From Bacteroidales bacterium (GTDB lineage: Bacteria > Bacteroidota > Bacteroidia > Bacteroidales > G3-4614): 37,531 bases of DNA. Below the pieces are notes generated by a model. It saw only the letters and a program-made list of their open reading frames with translations. It ran no database searches and was not told where the DNA came from. A program made the translations under genes and the position numbers. The stretch spans positions 1 to 37,531 of the forward strand of contig JAGBHI010000002.1 in assembly GCA_017935575.1 (NCBI GenBank), given 5' to 3'. Every line of letters starts with the position of its first letter. Positions within the stretch are counted from its first letter, which is position 1. Below are positions 1,538 to 18,156 of this stretch, in pieces.

Positions 1538-4500
1538 TTATGCGGCTTCGTTGCCAAATAGGTCATATCCCATCTCTTGGAGCGGGTACAAATATTTTTT
1601 TGCACTCTCCTCATCTCCATTTTGGATAAAGAACCTAATTGCTGTTCTTAATGTGTATTGATGTTTATAAATGTCTTGAGATAATGAGTTTAGTTTATCT
1701 TCGTCAAGTGAAGCAAACCAAATCATATATTCCAATGAGTTGTCGGCAATCTCAGTTAGCAAGGCTTTTCCCTTCTTTGTCTCTCCCAAACTGTAATATG
1801 CCATAGCCGGTTGAATTGAGAGGTAGTCGTGTTTTACGGCTGTAGAAGGTATTTTTTCGCACATATAGTCAAGTGCTTTTAGTGCCTTCTCCTCTTCACC
1901 TTCCAACATAAGGGCGTCAATAAGGTCAACAAACAACATTCTCATGGTATAACTCATACGACGAATATTTTCATCTAAATATATATCTGGGTTGTCAATT
2001 CCGCCCCATTCAAATTTATTCATCATATTGTCATACATGCTTTCGGTGTCAATCATGCTGTCGTCTTCTTCAATTTCGCTCTTAACGGGTAAAATCTTAT
2101 ATGCCAATCCCACTCTTACAAAGTAGTCGCGTAGGTTCACATACATATCAGGGCCAACAGTAACAGCGTAATATATTGGTCTCTCCCAACCCTCTTTTGA
2201 TATTGAGTTTATCATACTTAAAACAGCAATTTCGTTAAGGGTAAGACTACTCTTATTGGTAAAGTCTATATTAATTCTGTCAACAATTCTATCGCGTAAC
2301 TTTTCGGGTATTTTATCTTCAACAGCCTCTTTATCTACATCAATATACATCTTCTCGCAAGGGATATGGTCAACCGATATTCCGTATGCCGGAATATCTT
2401 TTGTCCATTTCTCTTCAGAGAAAAGGAAGTTTAGAGCATCGTTTAAAGATTGAGGCTCTTTGTTAAATCGGTCTAAAATATATGCATACACCAATTTGCC
2501 ATTGCCATATCTGTTCCAATCCATATCAATTGGCAGAGGTGTTGATTCGTAGGCTTGACTCTTCATTTGGTCAACATACCAATCGGTTTGCAGATAACTT
2601 AAGTTACATACTCTCACATCGGTTCTGTAACCCTCTGTCTCTTGTGCATACCACAATGGGAAGGTGTCGTTATCGCCATTAGTGAAGATTATTCCGTTAG
2701 GTTCAATACAACTTAAGTAGTTTTTTCCAAAGTCGCGTGCCGCATAACGTCCTGCGCGGTCGTGGTCGTCCCATGTCTGGCTTACCATTTGAAGGGGAAC
2801 AAACAGACATAGTATAGTTGCCAAACCTGCAACCAATGCGCTATCTTTTTTGGTAATGTACTTTTGTAAAAGATGATATACTCCGGCAACGCCCAATCCA
2901 ATCCATATAGCAAAGGCGTAGAACGAGCCTGCATAGGCATAATCCCTCTCTCTCGGCTGATATGGCGTTTGATTTAGATATATGACAATTGCCAAACCTG
3001 TCATAAAGAAGAGGAAGAATGTAATCCAAAAGCCTTCAATGCCCTTTTGCCCTGAGTATGCTTGATACAATAAGCCTATTAAACCAAGCAAAAGTGGTAG
3101 CATATAAAATACGTTTCTGCCCTTGTTCTCTTTAAGTTCCGATGGTAGAAATTCGGCATCGCCCTCAAGATGTTTATCAATAAAGCTGAAGCCTGTAATC
3201 CAATTTCCTTTGTGAATTTCGCCGTTACCCTGAATGTCGTTTTGACGACCTGCAAAGTTCCACATAAAGTAACGCCAATACATAAAGTTAACCTGATAAC
3301 TCAAGAAGAATTTAATATTCTCTATAAACGTAGGTTTGTTTACTGTTTTGGTACCGTTTGTGGTATTAACTCTAACAGGTTTGCCTTTAAAATTACTCCA
3401 CTCTTTGTATGCCTCAACGTGGTGTGCTTGTTGGCTGTACATACGAGGGAAGAGCATATTTAATTCAGGATTATAAATATAATCTCTCTTATGGTCAGTA
3501 ACCACGTAGCGGTCGGGTTCGTTTTCATCGTTTTTGATAGCTCGTTTCCAGATGGCTTTGCCCTCTTTGCTCTCGGCATTTCCGTTTTCATCACGAACTA
3601 CATCTGATACAAATGTATAACCGAAAGCTAAAGGTCTTTCGCCATATTGTTCGCGGTTAAGATAGCTTGCCAATGCAAATACATCTTCGGGAGAGTTTTG
3701 GTCCATAGGGGTATTTGCTGTTGAACGAAGCAGGATAAGTGCATACGAAGAGTATCCTATAAATACCACCATAATTGCTGTAAGAACCATGTTAAGCAAT
3801 CTTACATTTACTGTTTTTTTGACAAACATAAATATTGCAAAAGCGGCAGCAATCACTAACGATATAATTATATTATCGCTTACAAAAGGAATACCAACCA
3901 TAATAATGCTGATTAAGAAAGATACTCTTAATCGCATCATGCTTTTTTGTGTGAATGTTTCGTACAATCCCCAGCACATGCAACCTATAACCAAGAAGAA
4001 ATATACTACCACTCCTGTGTTATAAGGCATTCTAAACAGATTTACAAAAAGAAGTTCAGCCCAACCTGCTACCTTTATAAATCCGGGAACCAATCCGTAC
4101 AATATAAAGAATATGAGCATGAACGATACCAAAAGTGCTATAATAGAGCCTTTTGCCGTTGGTGCTTTCCATTTCTTGTAGTAGTAAACAAGAACTATTG
4201 CAGGGATACATAGCAAGTTAAGAAGGTGTACGGCAATAGATACACCCATTATATATGCAATAAGGATAATGTATCGGTATGAGTGTGGCTCGTCGGCATG
4301 GTTTTCCCATTTAAGTATAAGCCAGAATACCAATGCGGTACAAAAAGATGAGTAGGCATAAACCTCGCCCTCAACTGCCGAGAACCAGAAGGTATCGCTG
4401 AATGCGTATGCAAGTGCTCCAACTGCTCCTGACCCCATAACAGTTATAATTTTTGATAAAGAGAAGTCGTCGTTTTTGATAACTATCTTTTTTGCAAGGG

Positions 4501-8953: not shown

Positions 8954-9865
8954 ATGCGAAAAGAACAACATGCACAATCAATAAGAGAGACTGTACAGAA
9001 ACTTTCAAACGACGACTCTTTGAAAATTTTATGCAATTCGCAACAAGAGGGGGCTCCAATGCCCTCGGCTAAGGAGTTGCATGAGATTATAGAGCTTTGT
9101 CGTTCAATTATATTTCCCGGATATTTTGGACACTCGCGTGTTGATAGCGACACGTTGCCATACCACTTGGGTGTAAACTCGGAGAGGTTGTTTAAACTTC
9201 TTACCGAGCAAATTCTTGCAGGGTTATGCAGCGAATGTGGGTGCAAAGAGGGTATAAATATTGGAGAGTGCAGAGATAAGGCAAAGGATATTTCGTCGGA
9301 GTTTGTGGCTTCGTTACCCGAGTTGCGCAGAGTATTGGCCACCGATGTTATTGCCGCTTATAACGGAGACCCTGCTGCCGAAAGTTACTCGGAGGTTATA
9401 TTCTGTTATCCTGCCATAAGGGCAATTAGCAACTATCGCATTGCTCACCGTCTTATGGAGTTGGGTGTGCCCCTTATCCCCAGAATTATATCTGAAATGG
9501 CTCACTCCGAAACAGGAATTGATATTCACCCTGCTGCTACAATAGGCGAGTATTTCACCATTGACCACGGTACAGGTGTTGTTATTGGAGCTACTGCAAT
9601 ATTGGGTAATAATGTAAAACTATATCAAGGAGTAACGCTTGGAGCAAAGAGTTTCCCATTAGATGAGAACGGCAATCCAATAAAAGGCATTGCACGTCAC
9701 CCTATTATTGGCGATAACGTTATTATATATTCAAATGCTACTATTTTGGGCCGAATTACCATAGGCGAAGGTGCTGTAATTGGAGGTAATATATGGATAA
9801 CAGAAGATGTTGCCTCGGGCGAAGTAGTTACACAGTCAAAAGCAAAACAAAGAAAAGATAAATAG
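8954..9865 (+). CDS. cysE: Serine O-acetyltransferase
   Basis: Acetylates L-serine with acetyl-CoA to O-acetylserine, the first step of cysteine synthesis. An N-terminal helical domain (about residues 1-180) precedes a left-handed beta-helix made of hexapeptide repeats. Asp190 (in DIHP) and His205 (in IDHGTG) are 15 residues apart, the same spacing as the catalytic Asp143/His158 of E. coli CysE. The C-terminal tail is short and basic (SKAKQRKDK) and lacks an obvious terminal Ile, which in many CysE proteins docks into cysteine synthase; complex formation may differ here (inference). At 303 residues it has the longer N-terminus seen in Bacteroidetes. It is four bases ahead of the THUMP methyltransferase gene and probably in one operon with it and DPP IV. 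Confidence 0.93.
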   Translation: MRKEQHAQSIRETVQKLSNDDSLKILCNSQQEGAPMPSAKELHEIIELCRSIIFPGYFGHSRVDSDTLPYHLGVNSERLFKLLTEQILAGLCSECGCKEGINIGECRDKAKDISSEFVASLPELRRVLATDVIAAYNGDPAAESYSEVIFCYPAIRAISNYRIAHRLMELGVPLIPRIISEMAHSETGIDIHPAATIGEYFTIDHGTGVVIGATAILGNNVKLYQGVTLGAKSFPLDENGNPIKGIARHPIIGDNVIIYSNATILGRITIGEGAVIGGNIWITEDVASGEVVTQSKAKQRKDK

Positions 9866-11384: not shown

Positions 11385-13552
11385 TGCTAAATAATTTGAG
11401 AGTACTATCTGTTCTATTAACACTGTTTTTATCAATATTTTCAGTAATGGCACAAAACAGCAAAGAGTTGACACTGCAACACCTTATGCCCGGTGGTAAA
11501 AATTATTCGTCAATAATGCCCGAAAATATGAGACAATTGCAATTTGCAGGCGACAACTATATTTATGTAAAGGCAGGAAAAGTTATTGTTGGTACATTAC
11601 CCGATGCGAAAGAGCAGAAACTTATAACTAAGGAGGAGATTGATTTAATACTCTCAAATATTGGTAAAGATACCCTTAAAGCAATACCTCAGATTGTTGC
11701 TTCAGAGGAGAACGGCTCAATAATGTTGCGTTTTAAGCATAAGAACAGAGCATACAAAATTGATTGTAACACAAAAAAATTGGTATCGGAATATAACTTC
11801 AACAGAGGAGATAAACATGCCGAGTACTCGGCTGAGGCTGATGCTTATGTGTCAACAACCTATGATACTTTGCATTTGCATCTGCCAAACGGCAAAAGAG
11901 TTGTTATGACCTCTGATACGGCAAAAGATGTATCGCTCGGCTCAAACTATGTGCATCGTAATGAATTTGGTATAGAGAAGGGAATATTTTGGTCGCCCGG
12001 CGGTAAATCGGTAGCATTCTATCGTATGGACGAGAGTGCAGTAAAGGATTATCCACTTGTTGATGTGAGTGCGCGCCAAGCAGAGCTAAAGAGCATAAAA
12101 TATCCTATGGCAGGTATGAAGAGCCATACCGTAAAAGTGGGAGTATATAACCTTAAAAGAGGGAATACGGTTTATCTTAAAAGTGGCAAAACCGACGAAA
12201 GGTATTTTACAAATATAAGTTGGTCGCCCGAAGGTGATAAAATATATATTTTAGAGGTAAATCGCAAGCAAGATACCTGTAACCTTGTTTGCTATAATGC
12301 AAGAAGTGGCTCAAAAGAGGCGGTGCTCTTTACCGAAACAAGTGATAAATATACCGAGCCCGAGCACCCACTTATATTTATATCGGAGAATGAGTTTATA
12401 TATATATCGCGCCGAGATGGTTATCGCCATGCCTATATCTATAATACCAAAGGAGAGTTACAACGACAACTCACTTCGGGCGAATGGGAGATTTTAGATG
12501 CAAAAATATCTGCTGATAAAAGATTTTTATATATAACCTCTACTGAGGCTTCACCCATGGAGCGTAATCTTTATAAGGTTAATATAAAAAATGGAGAACG
12601 CGTGCGAATAACTCCTGAAGCAGGAGTTCATAATACTCAAATATCTCCGTCGTTTAACTACTACATTGATAACTTCAGTAACAATAATACTCCGCGAATT
12701 ATTAAAGCTGGTTCTCTTAAAACTCCCGGTAAAGATGTTGAGTTGTTGAGGGCAAAAAATCCGTTCAACAAATTTGATATGCCTGTGGTAATTGAGAACG
12801 GAACAATTATTGCCGCCGACGGAGTTACTACACTATATTACCGTATGACACGCCCGGCAGAGGTTGATTCAACAAAAAACCTACCGGCTATAATATATGT
12901 ATATGGTGGTCCTCATGCACAACAGGTAACCAACACCTTTATGTGGAACTATAGAGGTTGGGACATATATATGGCACAAAGAGGTTATGTTGTATTTACC
13001 CTTGATAATAGAGGGTCGGCAAACAGAGGATTGGAATTTGAAAGCGCGACGCATCGCAATCTCGGAAAGGTTGAGCTTGCCGACCAATTGCAGGGTGTAG
13101 AGTTCTTGAAATCGTTACCCTATGTTGATGCAACACGTCTTGGAGTTCATGGTTGGAGCTTTGGCGGATTTATGACATTGAATATGACTTTGAACAATCC
13201 CGATATGTTTAAAGCTGCAGTAGCAGGAGGAGCAGTTACCGATTGGAAATATTATGAGATTATGTATGGTGAGCGATATATGGGAACACCGCAGGATAAC
13301 CCCGAAGGTTATAAAAACTCAGACATGAATTCGCTTGCAGGTAATCTTAAAGGACGTCTATTGCTTATACATTGCGATACAGACCCCGTTGTGGTGTGGC
13401 AACATACTCTCCGCTTTTTGGATAGCAGTATAAACAGCGGTACTTATCCCGACTATTTTGTATATCCCGGACACGGACATAATGTAATAGGTCCCAACCG
13501 AGTACATCTATACGAGAAGATAACTCGCTATTTTGATGACTTTTTGAAGTAA
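11384..13552 (+). CDS. dpp4: Dipeptidyl peptidase IV, secreted S9B serine protease
   Basis: Releases X-Pro (and X-Ala) dipeptides from peptide N-termini; in oral and gut Bacteroidales this feeds peptide metabolism in the periplasm or at the surface. A signal peptide (about residues 1-23, ending SVMAQ) precedes the DPPIV_N beta-propeller (about 90-440) and the alpha/beta-hydrolase peptidase domain (about 500-722). The triad is visible as Ser592 in GWSFGG, Asp667 in LIHCDTDP and His699 in GHGHN, each exactly one residue before Ser593, Asp668 and His700 of P. gingivalis DPP IV. Length 722 matches that enzyme. It has no T9SS C-terminal domain, so the Sec route to the periplasm is expected. Translationally coupled to the upstream methyltransferase; followed by a strong hairpin at 13575-13610. 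Confidence 0.94.
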   Translation: MLNNLRVLSVLLTLFLSIFSVMAQNSKELTLQHLMPGGKNYSSIMPENMRQLQFAGDNYIYVKAGKVIVGTLPDAKEQKLITKEEIDLILSNIGKDTLKAIPQIVASEENGSIMLRFKHKNRAYKIDCNTKKLVSEYNFNRGDKHAEYSAEADAYVSTTYDTLHLHLPNGKRVVMTSDTAKDVSLGSNYVHRNEFGIEKGIFWSPGGKSVAFYRMDESAVKDYPLVDVSARQAELKSIKYPMAGMKSHTVKVGVYNLKRGNTVYLKSGKTDERYFTNISWSPEGDKIYILEVNRKQDTCNLVCYNARSGSKEAVLFTETSDKYTEPEHPLIFISENEFIYISRRDGYRHAYIYNTKGELQRQLTSGEWEILDAKISADKRFLYITSTEASPMERNLYKVNIKNGERVRITPEAGVHNTQISPSFNYYIDNFSNNNTPRIIKAGSLKTPGKDVELLRAKNPFNKFDMPVVIENGTIIAADGVTTLYYRMTRPAEVDSTKNLPAIIYVYGGPHAQQVTNTFMWNYRGWDIYMAQRGYVVFTLDNRGSANRGLEFESATHRNLGKVELADQLQGVEFLKSLPYVDATRLGVHGWSFGGFMTLNMTLNNPDMFKAAVAGGAVTDWKYYEIMYGERYMGTPQDNPEGYKNSDMNSLAGNLKGRLLLIHCDTDPVVVWQHTLRFLDSSINSGTYPDYFVYPGHGHNVIGPNRVHLYEKITRYFDDFLK

Positions 13553-13574
13553 TTATTAGTGTAAATCATATATA

Positions 13575-13610
13575 ATTAGCTCAGTTAGCCCATCGGCTGA
13601 TTGAGCTAAT
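13575..13610 (+). terminator. Terminator hairpin after DPP IV
   Basis: ATTAGCTCAGTTAGCC (13575-13590) pairs with GGCTGATTGAGCTAAT (13595-13610) over 16 positions including two G-U pairs, with a CATC loop, followed by GTTTTATAG. It lies 22 bases after the DPP IV stop and probably closes the cysE to DPP IV operon. Confidence 0.7.
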
Positions 13611-13791
13611 GTTTTATAGAAATAGCAATTTCTGATAGTTATAAACACTAATATCTTATAACCAAAATAGTTATATTGTTTTATTACCAAATTTAAAGGA
13701 ATGGCATGAAGAAAAAAGATAAAAACTAAAATAAAAATGCGTAAACATAAAAAAATGTCTCATATTAATAATATCATTTAAAAAGTTTTTA

Positions 13792-13799
13792 TATCTTTG
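13792..13799 (+). promoter_or_regulatory. -7 box TATCTTTG of the lipoprotein/leader RNA promoter
   Basis: Exact TAnnTTTG match 259 bases upstream of the lipoprotein ATG 14058. Transcription is expected to begin near 13803-13806. The -33 region is T/A-rich without a perfect TTTG. The rest of 13611-13791 is AT-rich with no feature recognised. Confidence 0.65.
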
Positions 13800-13803
13800 T
13801 CGC

Positions 13804-13997
13804 GTGTTGACTAAACTCAACGCACTATATATAATGGCATTTAGGCTGTTGTTCTGTTAAGAAAAACGACCAATTTTTATACAGACGAACAATAAGCACA
13901 ACAAATGCCCACTCCGTTTGGCGTGGGTGTGCTTATGTCTGTAAGGGTGCTTGGTCGTACCTTCTTAACAATGAGCACCTCCCACGTTTCCTTTTTT
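13804..13997 (+). ncRNA. Highly structured leader RNA or free-standing RNA (unnamed)
   Basis: A 5' hairpin at the expected transcript start pairs 13804-13810 with 13817-13823. A nested five-helix element follows: TGTTAAGAA 13855-13863 with TTCTTAACA 13962-13970; ACGACCAA 13866-13873 with TTGGTCGT 13951-13958; ACAGAC 13881-13886 with GTCTGT 13937-13942; ATAAGCAC 13892-13899 with GTGCTTAT 13929-13936; CCCAC 13908-13912 with GTGGG 13923-13927. Every helix pairs perfectly by Watson-Crick rules. A competing fold pairs GTGGG-T-GTGC (13923-13932) with GCAC-CT-CCCAC (13975-13985) just before TTTTTT (13992-13997). It could therefore be an attenuator-type leader of the lipoprotein gene or a roughly 190-base independent RNA. 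I do not recognise it as a named class. Confidence 0.6.
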
Positions 13998-14057
13998 ATA
14001 AAGTTTGCGGTTGCCATCATAAACAGGCAATATACTAACTTTATAAAAACAGATCTT

Positions 14058-17000
14058 ATGAAAACTAAAATCTTATCTTTGATGCTCGCTATGGTATCAG
14101 TATTAGTCCTCTCTTCGTGTTCAGAGGATATTGATCGTCCCGGCGCAGGAAAATTGAAGCAATCAAGTGTGACTATTAATGTAGGTGAATCAGCTCAATT
14201 GGGATTTACCGGTGAAGAAAGTGCATGGGAAATAGGAAATCCAAAAATCGCAAGTGTAACTTCAGATGGCGTAGTTACAGGATTACATGTAGGAAAGACA
14301 AATCTAAGAGTAAACTGGTCATATTGTGACATTACAGTAAAATCTTTGAATAATCTATATTTAGATCCTTGTGTGTCTGACTTTAATTTAAAAAGTGAGT
14401 CTATAAAGAATGCAATGGAGTATAAACAAGATTTGAATAAAACATATAACCTTTCATATAGTGCAGTTGCGGTAAATAATACCCTTATTGTTGATGGAAT
14501 AGTAACAGTTAAAGATGAAAGTGACAAAGAGACTCCTTATAGATTATTGTTTTATCCTGAATTATCTCCTGAGAACCTTGCAGATGTAAAAGATCCTTTG
14601 CAAAAAGCAGTATCACGATATGTTTATATGTTTGGTGATAATGGAAATTTGACAGGAGTCGGTGTTGTAATGGATCCTAAAAATCAAGAATTCTTGACAA
14701 AATATTTGTCAGACAGATATTGCTCAACCTCTACCGAGAATGAATATATAAGTATTGATGACAATGTATTAGTTAAAACTGATTTTGTAGATGATAAAAT
14801 TACTGATGGAAACAATAATACAAAAGTATATGTTGAAGATGCATATTTGGTAGCAATGTATGTTCCCAACAATCAATTAAAAGCAGACGAAGATATTTTT
14901 GCTGAGATAAAAGCCGGTATTGAGAATAGTATAGGTATCAATATGGATAATAAAGATTTTATCAAACGCAAAGAATTTGACGTTATGCTTACTGCAAAAG
15001 AAGGTGGTGTAGCAGAGGTGAAAAATATAAAAGGAGAGAGTAGTGCCGAGCTTAATGGAAAAATGATAGAATATGGTAAACTTTATTTATCAGCAATTGC
15101 AAACCCTGAATATCAATTTGGAGGTTGGGGCGAAAATAAAGATAATGGAGAAATATCTATCGTATCATATAAAGCTATTGATACTTTAACCGTAACAGAT
15201 AAAATTGATTATATAGCATGTTTCGGTAAACCATTTGAGGTAAAAGTTACAGTAGCAGACGAAAATCAAGGTTCTGCAAAAGTATCTTCTCCAACCGAAA
15301 AGGATAAAACTTCTTTGAATGTAACAGAATATGAGAAACTTACATTTGAAGCAATACCAGCAGAAGGTTTCCAATTTAAAGAGTGGCAAGACGCAGCAGG
15401 AAACGTAGTAAACAAACCTGCAAAATTTGAGGAAACTTTTAAAGAGGCGGTTGAATATAAAGCAATCTTTGAAGAGGCAATCTATAGCGTTATAGTTAAA
15501 GTAGAGGGCGAAGGAGAAATAAGTGGCGTAATAAAAGAAGAGGAAAAAGAAGATATAGAGATAAAAAAAGATGAGAATGAAAAAGGAGCTCTTAAAGATA
15601 ATGTCCAATATGGTAAAACAATAGTTATTACAGCTAAAGAAAAAGCGGATTCAGAGTTTGTCTTTACCGGTTGGGCTTCAAAAGAGACAGTAATCTCTAC
15701 AGCAAAAGAATTTACTATAACGTTGACTCAAGATACAGTAATTAATGCACAATTCAAGAAAATTGAATATAATATTACAACAAAAGCAGGAAAGGGCGGA
15801 ACAGTATCAAAAGGTAATAAAGCAGCAATTAATAGTGAATTTGAGATAATTGCAACTCCTAATGAAGGATATATATTTGACAAATGGGTATCAAAATATA
15901 CAGTAATCCAAAATAAAAAAGAAGTTATAAAAGAGGTAATAATCTCTCAAAATGCAGAAGATATATATATGTATGAACCTGATACATTGAAGTTCAATGT
16001 GTCGCAAGATTCAACTATTACAGCGCTATTTAAACCATTACCTTGCGATGTCTCATTCTCTGTAATAGGAGACGGAAGAGTTACAGGAGCTTCAAAACTT
16101 GTAAATGGTAAAGATGTTCAGTATTTACATATTGATGGAAGAATGAACCAATTGTATTATGGTGATTCCATAAAAGTATTTGTATCAAAAGAAAATACAG
16201 ATTTCAAAAATTGGAGATTATCAAAATATAGAGAGTGGGAACAAACTTTTGAAGATGAAACCAAAGCTCCGGAAGATAAAAAAGTAATTGTTTCAGGAGC
16301 AGAAGTTTCAACCCAAAACGTCTATATAGCTGTATTAACTCCCGAAGAATTTAAATATGACTATTGGTTTACTGATAACGTAACAGGCAAACGAGTAAAA
16401 CAAGTTGTTAGAAAAACTGCAACATCGTACTATAACGCAGTTATAGAAAAAGAGTTATTGTCAGCTAAAATAACTGCAAATAATGGAGGAAAAATTGTAG
16501 GACGTGGTTATTCAAGTGTTAAACCCGGAGAGAAATTAACAATTACATCTCAACCCAACACAGGTTATGAATTTGATTACTGGACAATAAACGGCAAAAA
16601 GTTAGAGGGAGAGACTGAAGAGACTATTATATATGAAAGTGAAAATGGAGAGGAAACCGAAAATCTTAACGAAGCAAAAATAGATGAAAAGACAAAAAAA
16701 CCAATAGTAAAAACAAAAATAACAACTATTACCACTGAAGCCGGAGATGTAATTACAATAACATCACAAGGATCAACGCTTACTACAAGAGATATTTATG
16801 CTAATGTAGCAGTTGAAGCATTCTTTAAGTTGAAAAAAATTGAGGTAAAGGTAACCGCTCCTAAAGAAGAGGGAGAGACTGAAGAAGAAGGAGAGACTGA
16901 AGAAAAAGGATATGTTTCTGTTATAAGCGGAGCTACAAAAATAGATAATAATACATATTTGATTGATTATAATTCTCAGATAACAATTCAAGCTACACCT

Positions 17001-17141
17001 GCTGAGGGATATATATTTGAAAGTTGGAATGTAGGGGATCAAGTTGTAAGCACCAATAATCCTTATACCACTGCTAAAATTACAGACGAAGGTAAAGAGT
17101 TTAAAGCAATTTTTGTAAAACAAGAGGAAGTAGTAGAGTAG
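14058..17141 (+). CDS. Large surface lipoprotein with BIG2 and InlB-type repeats
   Basis: 1027 residues from ATG 14058. A lipoprotein signal (MKTKILSLMLAMVSVLVLSSC, lipobox LSSC) is followed by SEDID, so it should be acylated and is probably exposed at the cell surface. A bacterial Ig-like (BIG2) domain at about residues 30-95 (SVTINVGES, SVTSDGVVTGLHVGKT) comes first. After a region of about 200 residues without recognisable domain come six or so divergent InlB B-repeats, marked by variants of GYxFDxW / FxGW and ending AxF (for example EGFQFKEW, EGYIFDKW, TGYEFDYW, EGYIFESW). The acidic word EGETEE occurs three times. The frame is open 51 codons further upstream to ATG 13905, but that stretch is the structured leader, and ATG 14058 gives the signal peptide. 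Adhesion or glycan binding is possible; function unknown. Confidence 0.8.
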   Translation: MKTKILSLMLAMVSVLVLSSCSEDIDRPGAGKLKQSSVTINVGESAQLGFTGEESAWEIGNPKIASVTSDGVVTGLHVGKTNLRVNWSYCDITVKSLNNLYLDPCVSDFNLKSESIKNAMEYKQDLNKTYNLSYSAVAVNNTLIVDGIVTVKDESDKETPYRLLFYPELSPENLADVKDPLQKAVSRYVYMFGDNGNLTGVGVVMDPKNQEFLTKYLSDRYCSTSTENEYISIDDNVLVKTDFVDDKITDGNNNTKVYVEDAYLVAMYVPNNQLKADEDIFAEIKAGIENSIGINMDNKDFIKRKEFDVMLTAKEGGVAEVKNIKGESSAELNGKMIEYGKLYLSAIANPEYQFGGWGENKDNGEISIVSYKAIDTLTVTDKIDYIACFGKPFEVKVTVADENQGSAKVSSPTEKDKTSLNVTEYEKLTFEAIPAEGFQFKEWQDAAGNVVNKPAKFEETFKEAVEYKAIFEEAIYSVIVKVEGEGEISGVIKEEEKEDIEIKKDENEKGALKDNVQYGKTIVITAKEKADSEFVFTGWASKETVISTAKEFTITLTQDTVINAQFKKIEYNITTKAGKGGTVSKGNKAAINSEFEIIATPNEGYIFDKWVSKYTVIQNKKEVIKEVIISQNAEDIYMYEPDTLKFNVSQDSTITALFKPLPCDVSFSVIGDGRVTGASKLVNGKDVQYLHIDGRMNQLYYGDSIKVFVSKENTDFKNWRLSKYREWEQTFEDETKAPEDKKVIVSGAEVSTQNVYIAVLTPEEFKYDYWFTDNVTGKRVKQVVRKTATSYYNAVIEKELLSAKITANNGGKIVGRGYSSVKPGEKLTITSQPNTGYEFDYWTINGKKLEGETEETIIYESENGEETENLNEAKIDEKTKKPIVKTKITTITTEAGDVITITSQGSTLTTRDIYANVAVEAFFKLKKIEVKVTAPKEEGETEEEGETEEKGYVSVISGATKIDNNTYLIDYNSQITIQATPAEGYIFESWNVGDQVVSTNNPYTTAKITDEGKEFKAIFVKQEEVVE

Positions 17142-17156
17142 ATATTCATATAATCT

Positions 17157-17178
17157 GCCTTAGCAAGGCTTTAAATTT
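17157..17178 (+). terminator. Short terminator after the large lipoprotein
   Basis: GCCTT (17157-17161) and AAGGC (17165-17169) pair around AGC and are followed by TTTAAATTTTG. It begins 16 bases after the lipoprotein stop. Confidence 0.5.
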
Positions 17179-17188
17179 TGTTGTTAAT

Positions 17189-17218
17189 ATATATGGGTTG
17201 CATGCGCAACCCATATAT
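17189..17218. terminator. Perfect 13-bp hairpin between the two lipoprotein genes
   Basis: ATATATGGGTTGC (17189-17201) and GCAACCCATATAT (17206-17218) pair perfectly around ATGC. The stem ends 21 bases before the next ATG, so besides termination it could mask or stabilise the leader of the second lipoprotein. Confidence 0.6.
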
Positions 17219-17238
17219 TATATAAATATGATAGTTTT

Positions 17239-18156
17239 ATGATTAAAGAGATATTAAAAATCCTACCTATATTACTTATGCTGGTCTTGCTATTTACAGC
17301 ATGCGAGAAAGATAATAAAAATAGTAATGGTGGTGATACTCTTACCCCTTCATCTCATAATGTTATAATTATGACTAATGGAGGAGAGGGCAATATTCAA
17401 AAAAAAGAGATTCTTGCTCTGACAGGAGAAAAGATTTTACTTCAGACTCGAGTTGACGGTAATTACACGTTTAAAAATTGGACTAATAAAGGAGAGATTA
17501 TTAGTTTTAAAAATCCTTCGGAGATTTGCGTGACAAAAGATATGGAGATAGTTGCTAATTTTGCTAATAGTAAAACAGCAATTGAGTTTATTGATTTGGG
17601 ATTAAATGTGAAATGGGCAACTTTCAATGTAGGAGCAGGAGCTCCACATGAATTTGGGGACTATTTTGCCTGGGGAGAAACCAATACAAAAATAGAGTCA
17701 GGCTATTATTGGGATTTTTATAAATATTGTTCAGGAACCTACAACTCTATTGAAAAATATAATAGTGTAAAAGATTATGGCTTAGTAGATAATAAATATT
17801 ATCTTGAATTGGACGATGATGTAGCTTATAAACAGTGGGAAAAAACTTGTCGTATGCCTACCAAAAATGAGTTTGAAGAGTTAATTGAAAATTGTAATTG
17901 GACTTGGACAACTCTTGAGGGAGTAAACGGTTATAAAATAGTTGCTAAAAACGGCAATTCGATATTTCTTCCTGTTACCGGATATATAAAAGGAGTGTTA
18001 CATATAAATAGTCAGAGTGGTAATTATTTTACATCATCTCTTGATAAAACGGTACCTTATGAGGCCTGTGTCTTAAAATTTACATCGCAAATAAGAGAGA
18101 TAAATTCTATGAGTAGATGTTATGGAAATATGGTTCGCCCTGTCTCTGACTATTAA
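17239..18156 (+). CDS. Lipoprotein with InlB-type repeat and FISUMP-like domain
   Basis: 305 residues. Signal peptide with lipobox LFTAC (Cys22) gives an acylated N-terminus. Residues about 40-110 form one InlB-type repeat (VIIMTNGGEGNIQ, YTFKNWTNKGEI, IVANFAN). Residues about 115-305 match the Fibrobacter succinogenes major paralogous (FISUMP) domain found in many Bacteroidetes surface proteins: DLGLNVKWATFNVGA, GDYFAWGET, CRMPTKNEFEEL and the ending MVRPVSDY are its usual landmarks. No catalytic residues are known for this domain; a binding role is inferred. It shares the InlB-repeat theme with the preceding lipoprotein, suggesting related surface functions. Converges on the AraC gene with a 39-base gap holding no clear terminator. 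Confidence 0.75.
   Translation: MIKEILKILPILLMLVLLFTACEKDNKNSNGGDTLTPSSHNVIIMTNGGEGNIQKKEILALTGEKILLQTRVDGNYTFKNWTNKGEIISFKNPSEICVTKDMEIVANFANSKTAIEFIDLGLNVKWATFNVGAGAPHEFGDYFAWGETNTKIESGYYWDFYKYCSGTYNSIEKYNSVKDYGLVDNKYYLELDDDVAYKQWEKTCRMPTKNEFEELIENCNWTWTTLEGVNGYKIVAKNGNSIFLPVTGYIKGVLHINSQSGNYFTSSLDKTVPYEACVLKFTSQIREINSMSRCYGNMVRPVSDY

Follow-up and report, generated by a model that had tools for sequence, protein, structure and literature searches.

The window, by which we mean the whole analysed stretch of 37,531 nucleotides from a Bacteroidales bacterium (contig JAGBHI010000002.1), carries a structured RNA of about 170 bases that adjoins the 5' side of a surface-protein gene. It belongs to a block (13777-18144) of promoter, RNA and two lipoprotein genes, situated between a peptidase gene and an efflux operon. 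The lipoprotein starts at the ATG at 14058; an open reading frame was also called from 13905, and this longer version extends the gene in frame across the RNA. In a relative (L009), Pfam identified a Big_2 domain. A strong hairpin at 13573-13610 (AATTAGCTCAGTTAGCC...GGCTGATTGAGCTAAT), 3' of the peptidase gene, is probably the terminator of that gene. The features of the RNA and its surroundings are collected in Table 1.

Table 1. Features of the structured RNA and adjacent genes in the window
Feature	Position	Strand	Basis
Bacteroidota -7 promoter box TATCTTTG, fits TAnnTTTG	13792-13799	+	read in window sequence
5' hairpin GUGUUGA/UCAACGC, presumed transcript start	13804-13823	+	window fold
Strand F, 5' partner of N (GGCAUUU with AAAUGCC, UUGUUC with GAACAA)	13836-13854	+	swap test, window folding
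P1, 9 bp	13855-13863 / 13962-13970	+	window fold
Hairpin Ha (AAAAA-loop-UUUUU)	13862-13878	+	stem covariation and window folding
P2, 8 bp	13866-13873 / 13951-13958	+	window fold
P3, 7 bp	13880-13886 / 13937-13943	+	window fold
Strand N, partner of F or M; holds the 5' strands of P4 and P5	13887-13912	+	swap test
P4, 8 bp	13892-13899 / 13929-13936	+	window fold
P5, 5 bp	13908-13912 / 13923-13927	+	window fold
Strand M, partner of N (rod) or T (terminator)	13921-13936	+	M:T pairing, swap test
Hairpin Hb (GGGUGC-loop-GUACCU)	13943-13963	+	stem covariation
Strand T, 3' side of the terminator stem	13973-13986	+	M:T pairing, window fold
Terminator U-run, tail TTTCCTTTTTT	13987-13997	+	window sequence
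Leader hairpin UUGCC...GGCAA, between U-run and start codon	14011-14030	+	window fold
Surface lipoprotein, proposed regulated gene, ATG 14058	14058-17141	+	window reading frame
Second lipoprotein, in the block relocated along with the RNA	17239-18156	+	relative comparison

The original prediction described an exact -7 box, a 5' hairpin at the expected start, five nested helices and a competing terminator fold. The box and the 5' hairpin were both found where they had been placed. All five helices (13855-13970) are present too, with the correction that P3 has 7 bp instead of 6. The competing pairing of GCGTGGGTGTGCTTA (13921-13935) with GAGCACCTCCCACG (13973-13986) likewise exists, together with the hairpin at 13943-13963 and the T-run; a simple terminator scan misses this terminator because its loop is too long for the scan pattern. 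The loops of hairpins Ha (13866-13873) and Hb (13951-13958) are the 5' and 3' strands of the variable pair P2, and Hb excludes P2. The predicted minimum free energy of the window RNA was -64.0 kcal/mol, as compared with -41.2 +/- 4.0 kcal/mol for dinucleotide shuffles (z = -5.65); after removal of the 5' hairpin the z-score was -4.99, and none of 200 shuffles was equally stable.

No known family accounts for the element. Rfam 15 gave no match in the window at gathering thresholds, and the only match at the locus was a spurious miRNA (E = 1.3), which we regard as chance. The element also remained without an Rfam match in 26 further loci, of which six were searched at E values up to 1 and twenty at gathering thresholds, and riboswitch models matched neither the window nor these loci. 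This agrees with the earlier statement that no named class could be recognized, and the known Rfam family that would have counted against the original prediction did not appear. A text search of the open literature found no description of the element. The palindromic Bacteroidetes candidates HMP2_4078 and HMP2_4205, mentioned in PMC8040213, might be fragments of this RNA family.

A DNA search recovered relatives at the corresponding gene in three genomes of the genus (84% identical), plus diverged paralogues. With a first covariance model, built from six sequences, 54 copies were found in eight genomes of the genus (3-10 per genome), and matches occurred in at least 146 of 393 Bacteroidales genomes, representing at least 92 of 206 genera. 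A refined model, used for a phylum-wide search, matched at least 75 of 392 genomes. In these two surveys of Bacteroidales and of the phylum, seven candidates were scored per genome, and the counts are lower bounds. Bacteroidota genomes carry up to ten or more copies each, in front of differing accessory genes. Pattern searches of named genomes extended the range to Flavobacteriia, Sphingobacteriia, Cytophagia, Chitinophagia and one Ignavibacteriales bin, and cultured carriers include Capnocytophaga canis, Mucilaginibacter, Sphingobacterium lumbrici, Flagellimonas and Gelidibacter. Copies were also present on mobilizable plasmids of Chryseobacterium and Rhizosphaericola.

A viral origin was set aside, since a strict pattern had no match in IMG/VR and a looser one retrieved 62 contigs of which two held a true copy. 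One scaffold deposited as phage (L008, MT835758.1) has integrase- and primase-like genes followed by a copy of the RNA, which precedes a gene for a 215-aa protein and then a gene for an OLD-like ATPase, possibly forming a defence module. In locus L131, two divergently oriented copies (2937-3103 and 3669-3840), about 570 nt apart, each precede a gene of their own. A Group II intron match lies near the copy in another locus (L133:1620-1694). Many copies in the fragmented assemblies of four genomes (G023, G179, G053 and G076) are located no more than a few hundred bases from a contig end, which suggests strain-variable neighbourhoods.

To examine covariation we used an alignment (A7) of 100 copies, fitted to helices P1-P5. 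In this alignment 94.6% of the helix cells of the rod were paired, as opposed to 69.8% in shuffles, and the covariation score was 0.667, compared to 0.199 for shuffles and at most 0.092 for slid versions. The original prediction had named loss of pairing without compensation as evidence against a functional fold; what we found were 841 cells with changes in both partners, as opposed to 225 in shuffles. The outer helix P1 was 98.1% paired with double changes in eight of its nine pairs, and P3 was 95.8% paired with double changes in every pair (100 sequences each). The six core pairs of P2 were 99.3% paired, and as many as 46 double changes occurred in a column. The P2 strands are hypervariable, with 82 distinct sequences among 188 copies; this number comes from a procedure that selects the best complement, and more weight is therefore given to the count made in fixed columns. 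The claim that the fold is far beyond chance is borne out by the persistence of architecture and covariation in 188 non-redundant relatives, and the covariation rules out a chance fold. Identical P2 loops within one genome (32% versus 64% at high similarity) showed a trend only, confounded by orthology, and for that reason avoidance of identical loop pairs within a genome was not adopted as an explanation.

The alternative pairings are conserved as well. The M:T pairing was 99.3% paired with double changes in three of six pairs, a modest covariation because strand M is nearly invariant; the conservation of M could also have another cause, e.g., protein binding. The Ha stem occurs as GAAAA/UUUUC and GAAAU/AUUUC, and the Hb stem covaries (GGUA/UACC, GGUU/AACC and GGCU/AGCC) in a manner that the rod cannot explain. 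Because A7 had been fitted to P1-P5, an alignment-free test was added in which each strand was compared with its own partner and with the partner strand taken from another copy. The own partner won in 96% of cases for P1, 97% for P3, 83% for N:M, 77% for M:T and 74% for F:N, and four control pairings gave 49-55%. Since the terminator pairing, Hb and the 5' pairing thus covary too, the RNA carries, as judged from these comparative data, two conserved and mutually exclusive folds.

Within the helices G-T combinations outnumbered A-C combinations 12-fold (308 versus 26), and RNA of the + strand is therefore the molecule under selection. This bears on the idea that the element works at the DNA level, as a site for recombination or attachment with a hairpin that is active in single-stranded form. 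Such a site would explain the movement with genes described below, where the RNA-gene block occupies two sites in relatives and has direct flanking copies in two of them; the strand bias argues against it, as do the promoter and U-run that flank the core and the dispersed rather than arrayed copies, and we consider it very improbable. An integron attC-like site, to which GCGTTAGC motifs drew attention, was set aside in view of the selected + strand RNA and the dispersed copies.

The family has the layout of a leader. The promoter motif TAnnTTTG was found 5' of 83 of 179 members, against 5.8 expected from shuffles, and a by-eye reading located a variable hairpin between promoter and core in other members also. 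A run of four or more T residues ends the RNA in 176 of 188 members. As in an attenuator, one of the two exclusive conserved folds has the form of an intrinsic terminator. In 170 of 177 cases the gene that follows is encoded on the strand of the RNA, which places the RNA at a 5' leader site; the upstream gene shares this strand in 117 of 173. From the RNA end to the ATG the median distance is 55 nt, with quartiles of 45 and 84. In five copies (L034, L036, L041, L030 and L048) about 320-370 nt separate the U-run from the gene, and these share a conserved stretch after the U-run that starts with AUGRUACACAU, possibly a second leader element or a small reading frame.

The downstream genes mostly encode surface proteins, and a start resembling a signal sequence was present in about two thirds of the products (109 of 170). 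Restriction and defence genes also occur. Pfam and PADLOC matches included BspA-type LRR, laminin-G-like and BACON domains, the T9SS tail and LytTR, as well as type I, IIG and III restriction enzymes or methylases, GmrSD and DRT proteins, with no single dominant pathway. A type III toxin-antitoxin system has a similar order of promoter, RNA, terminator and gene, but the proteins encoded here are diverse secreted, surface and other proteins, and this candidate was rejected. That an undescribed family of structured RNAs is linked in cis to these genes is, in our judgement, very likely.

The Rfam cis-regulatory candidate DUF805 RNA (RF03081) was found 36-40 nt behind the element in three loci (L132:1093-1161, L152:1403-1468 and L163:704-773) and 137 nt behind it in a fourth (L221:3773-3840); L152 has a second copy at 2367-2435. 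Both are candidates for cis-regulation, but the DUF805 model has 68 positions and a different sequence. They are distinct leader elements, which in some cases share an mRNA.

Within the genus, the window lipoprotein is represented in precisely those four genomes that possess this copy of the RNA, and across them the RNA is 84% identical and the lipoprotein about 48%. In two genomes (G002 and G004) the matching block is located on the opposite side of the efflux operon, and in four (G001, G005, G006 and G007) both sites are empty. The two positions and the empty sites indicate that promoter, leader and genes have moved together at least once. In G002 and G004 the block is flanked on both sides by direct copies of the 3' end of the efflux gene with its terminator (L369, around 11830-11930 and 16040-16150; L366, around 8960-9010 and 13080-13160), which suggests insertion by recombination or an integrase.

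The original prediction left room for a stand-alone RNA of about 190 bases. Such a small RNA would have its 3' end at the U-run and work in trans, perhaps targeting RNA polymerase like 6S RNA, and the gene behind it would use a promoter of its own. Some features resemble 6S RNA (RF00013, RF01685 6S-Flavo and RF01693): a length of about 170-200 nt, an own promoter and a long, very stable rod with internal loops, to which can be added the U-run and the ability of the 5' end to pair with the 3' end in many members. Unlike 6S RNA, the element is multicopy, has no Rfam match and is linked to a downstream gene; instead of the single trans-acting gene per genome, there are 3-10 copies before different genes. 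The 6S RNA of this genome, Bacteroidales-1 (RF01693, 145.8 bits), is located on a different contig (C24), RF00013 has no match in the genome, and none of the three 6S models matches the element, which rules out 6S RNA itself. The wider reading is weakened by gene placement: 170 of 177 following genes share the strand of the RNA, and the median spacing of 55 nt offers little space for another promoter. It is also weakened by RNA and gene being present, absent or relocated together. Furthermore, a subset of members has a loop, about 15-45 nt past the U-run, that is complementary to strand T; scores of at least 18 for this match (T:D) were reached by 25% of own pairs, compared with 5% after swapping and 3% after shuffling. 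In the window copy, the loop of the hairpin at 14011-14030 showed no clear complement to T. Taken with these points, a trans-acting RNA appears unlikely.

The most probable role of the element is that of a cis-acting attenuator or a leader resembling a riboswitch, and the conservation of both competing folds supports the original prediction in this respect. It seems to alternate between an open fold and one that stops transcription, and its main action is probably, on this comparative evidence, control of read-through at its own terminator. As a leader, it would set how much of the transcription begun at its own promoter continues into the following gene. The rod comprises P1-P5 with N paired to M, and it holds strand T off M. 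The stop fold pairs F with N and M with T before the U-run, with the P2 strands enclosed in Ha and Hb.

Stepwise folding of the window RNA gave F:N at 13922, N:M at 13935 and the full rod at 13974, and the full rod is predicted to be present before T is transcribed. From predicted energies the rod is more stable than the terminator fold by a mean of 13.8 kcal/mol and is favoured in 98% of copies. Since the rod has already been completed when T emerges, and is the more stable fold, we infer that it would win by default during transcription and the gene would be read. Given this modelled stability, unaided terminator formation may be rare. A signal, whether a small molecule, a protein or transcription pausing, that stabilizes F:N or Hb could then lead to the terminator and shut off the gene. 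In part of the family, T could instead pair with the loop of a hairpin 3' of the U-run, which may lock in read-through or have an effect on translation. The two P2 loops could also form a kissing complex, although Hb excludes P2 as a plain helix.

Similarity to terminator attenuators and riboswitches, with trp-type logic, is found in the 5' leader position, in successive strands with a choice of two neighbouring partners each, and in a terminator with a U-run and a same-strand gene directly behind. In contrast to these systems, the element has no known aptamer and more strands, and no ligand pocket was identified in the RNA. A non-systematic reading of the leaders revealed no leader peptide or other short regulatory reading frame. 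Its inner helix is a hypervariable loop pair, and up to ten copies per genome precede unrelated accessory genes. Kissing-loop RNAs such as ColE1 RNAI/RNAII and the retroviral dimer site similarly have two loops with 6-8 complementary bases and a possible extended duplex, but here the two loops are within one molecule and also occur in competing hairpins.

Leader elements before horizontally acquired or surface-related genes are also known from put RNA of phage HK022, ops/RfaH and UpxY. An element of this type, put-like or a site for a NusG paralogue, would load onto RNA polymerase for processive antitermination through long accessory genes, and the folds would represent assembly states instead of a ligand switch. 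The occurrence before accessory and surface genes in general, instead of one pathway, fits this explanation, as RfaH/ops and put systems are likewise tied to such genes, and so does the strong conservation of M. On the other hand, known processive antitermination elements are simpler in structure; put, ops and UpxY sites are simple hairpins or short DNA-coded sites and lack a two-fold terminator switch. The conserved terminator alternative at the RNA end points to local attenuation, and we regard processive antitermination as quite unlikely. Beyond the attenuator itself, we consider as a tentative and rather doubtful extension that the element is a phylum-wide leader travelling with horizontally acquired genes and governed by one common cellular signal or antitermination factor, in which the P2 loops would keep each copy from pairing with its sister copies in place of itself, or let copies of the same type recognize each other.

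Post-transcriptional regulation in Bacteroidota is poorly known. The results go beyond the original prediction in identifying a family that is phylum-wide and multicopy, stands before accessory genes generally and has a hypervariable, self-complementary loop pair. A strongly covarying RNA across Bacteroidota that lies outside Rfam points to common control of adhesin, lipoprotein, restriction and defence genes in gut and environmental bacteria. It provides a testable switch, a search model and cultured carrier species, and may explain how hosts control newly acquired surface and defence genes.
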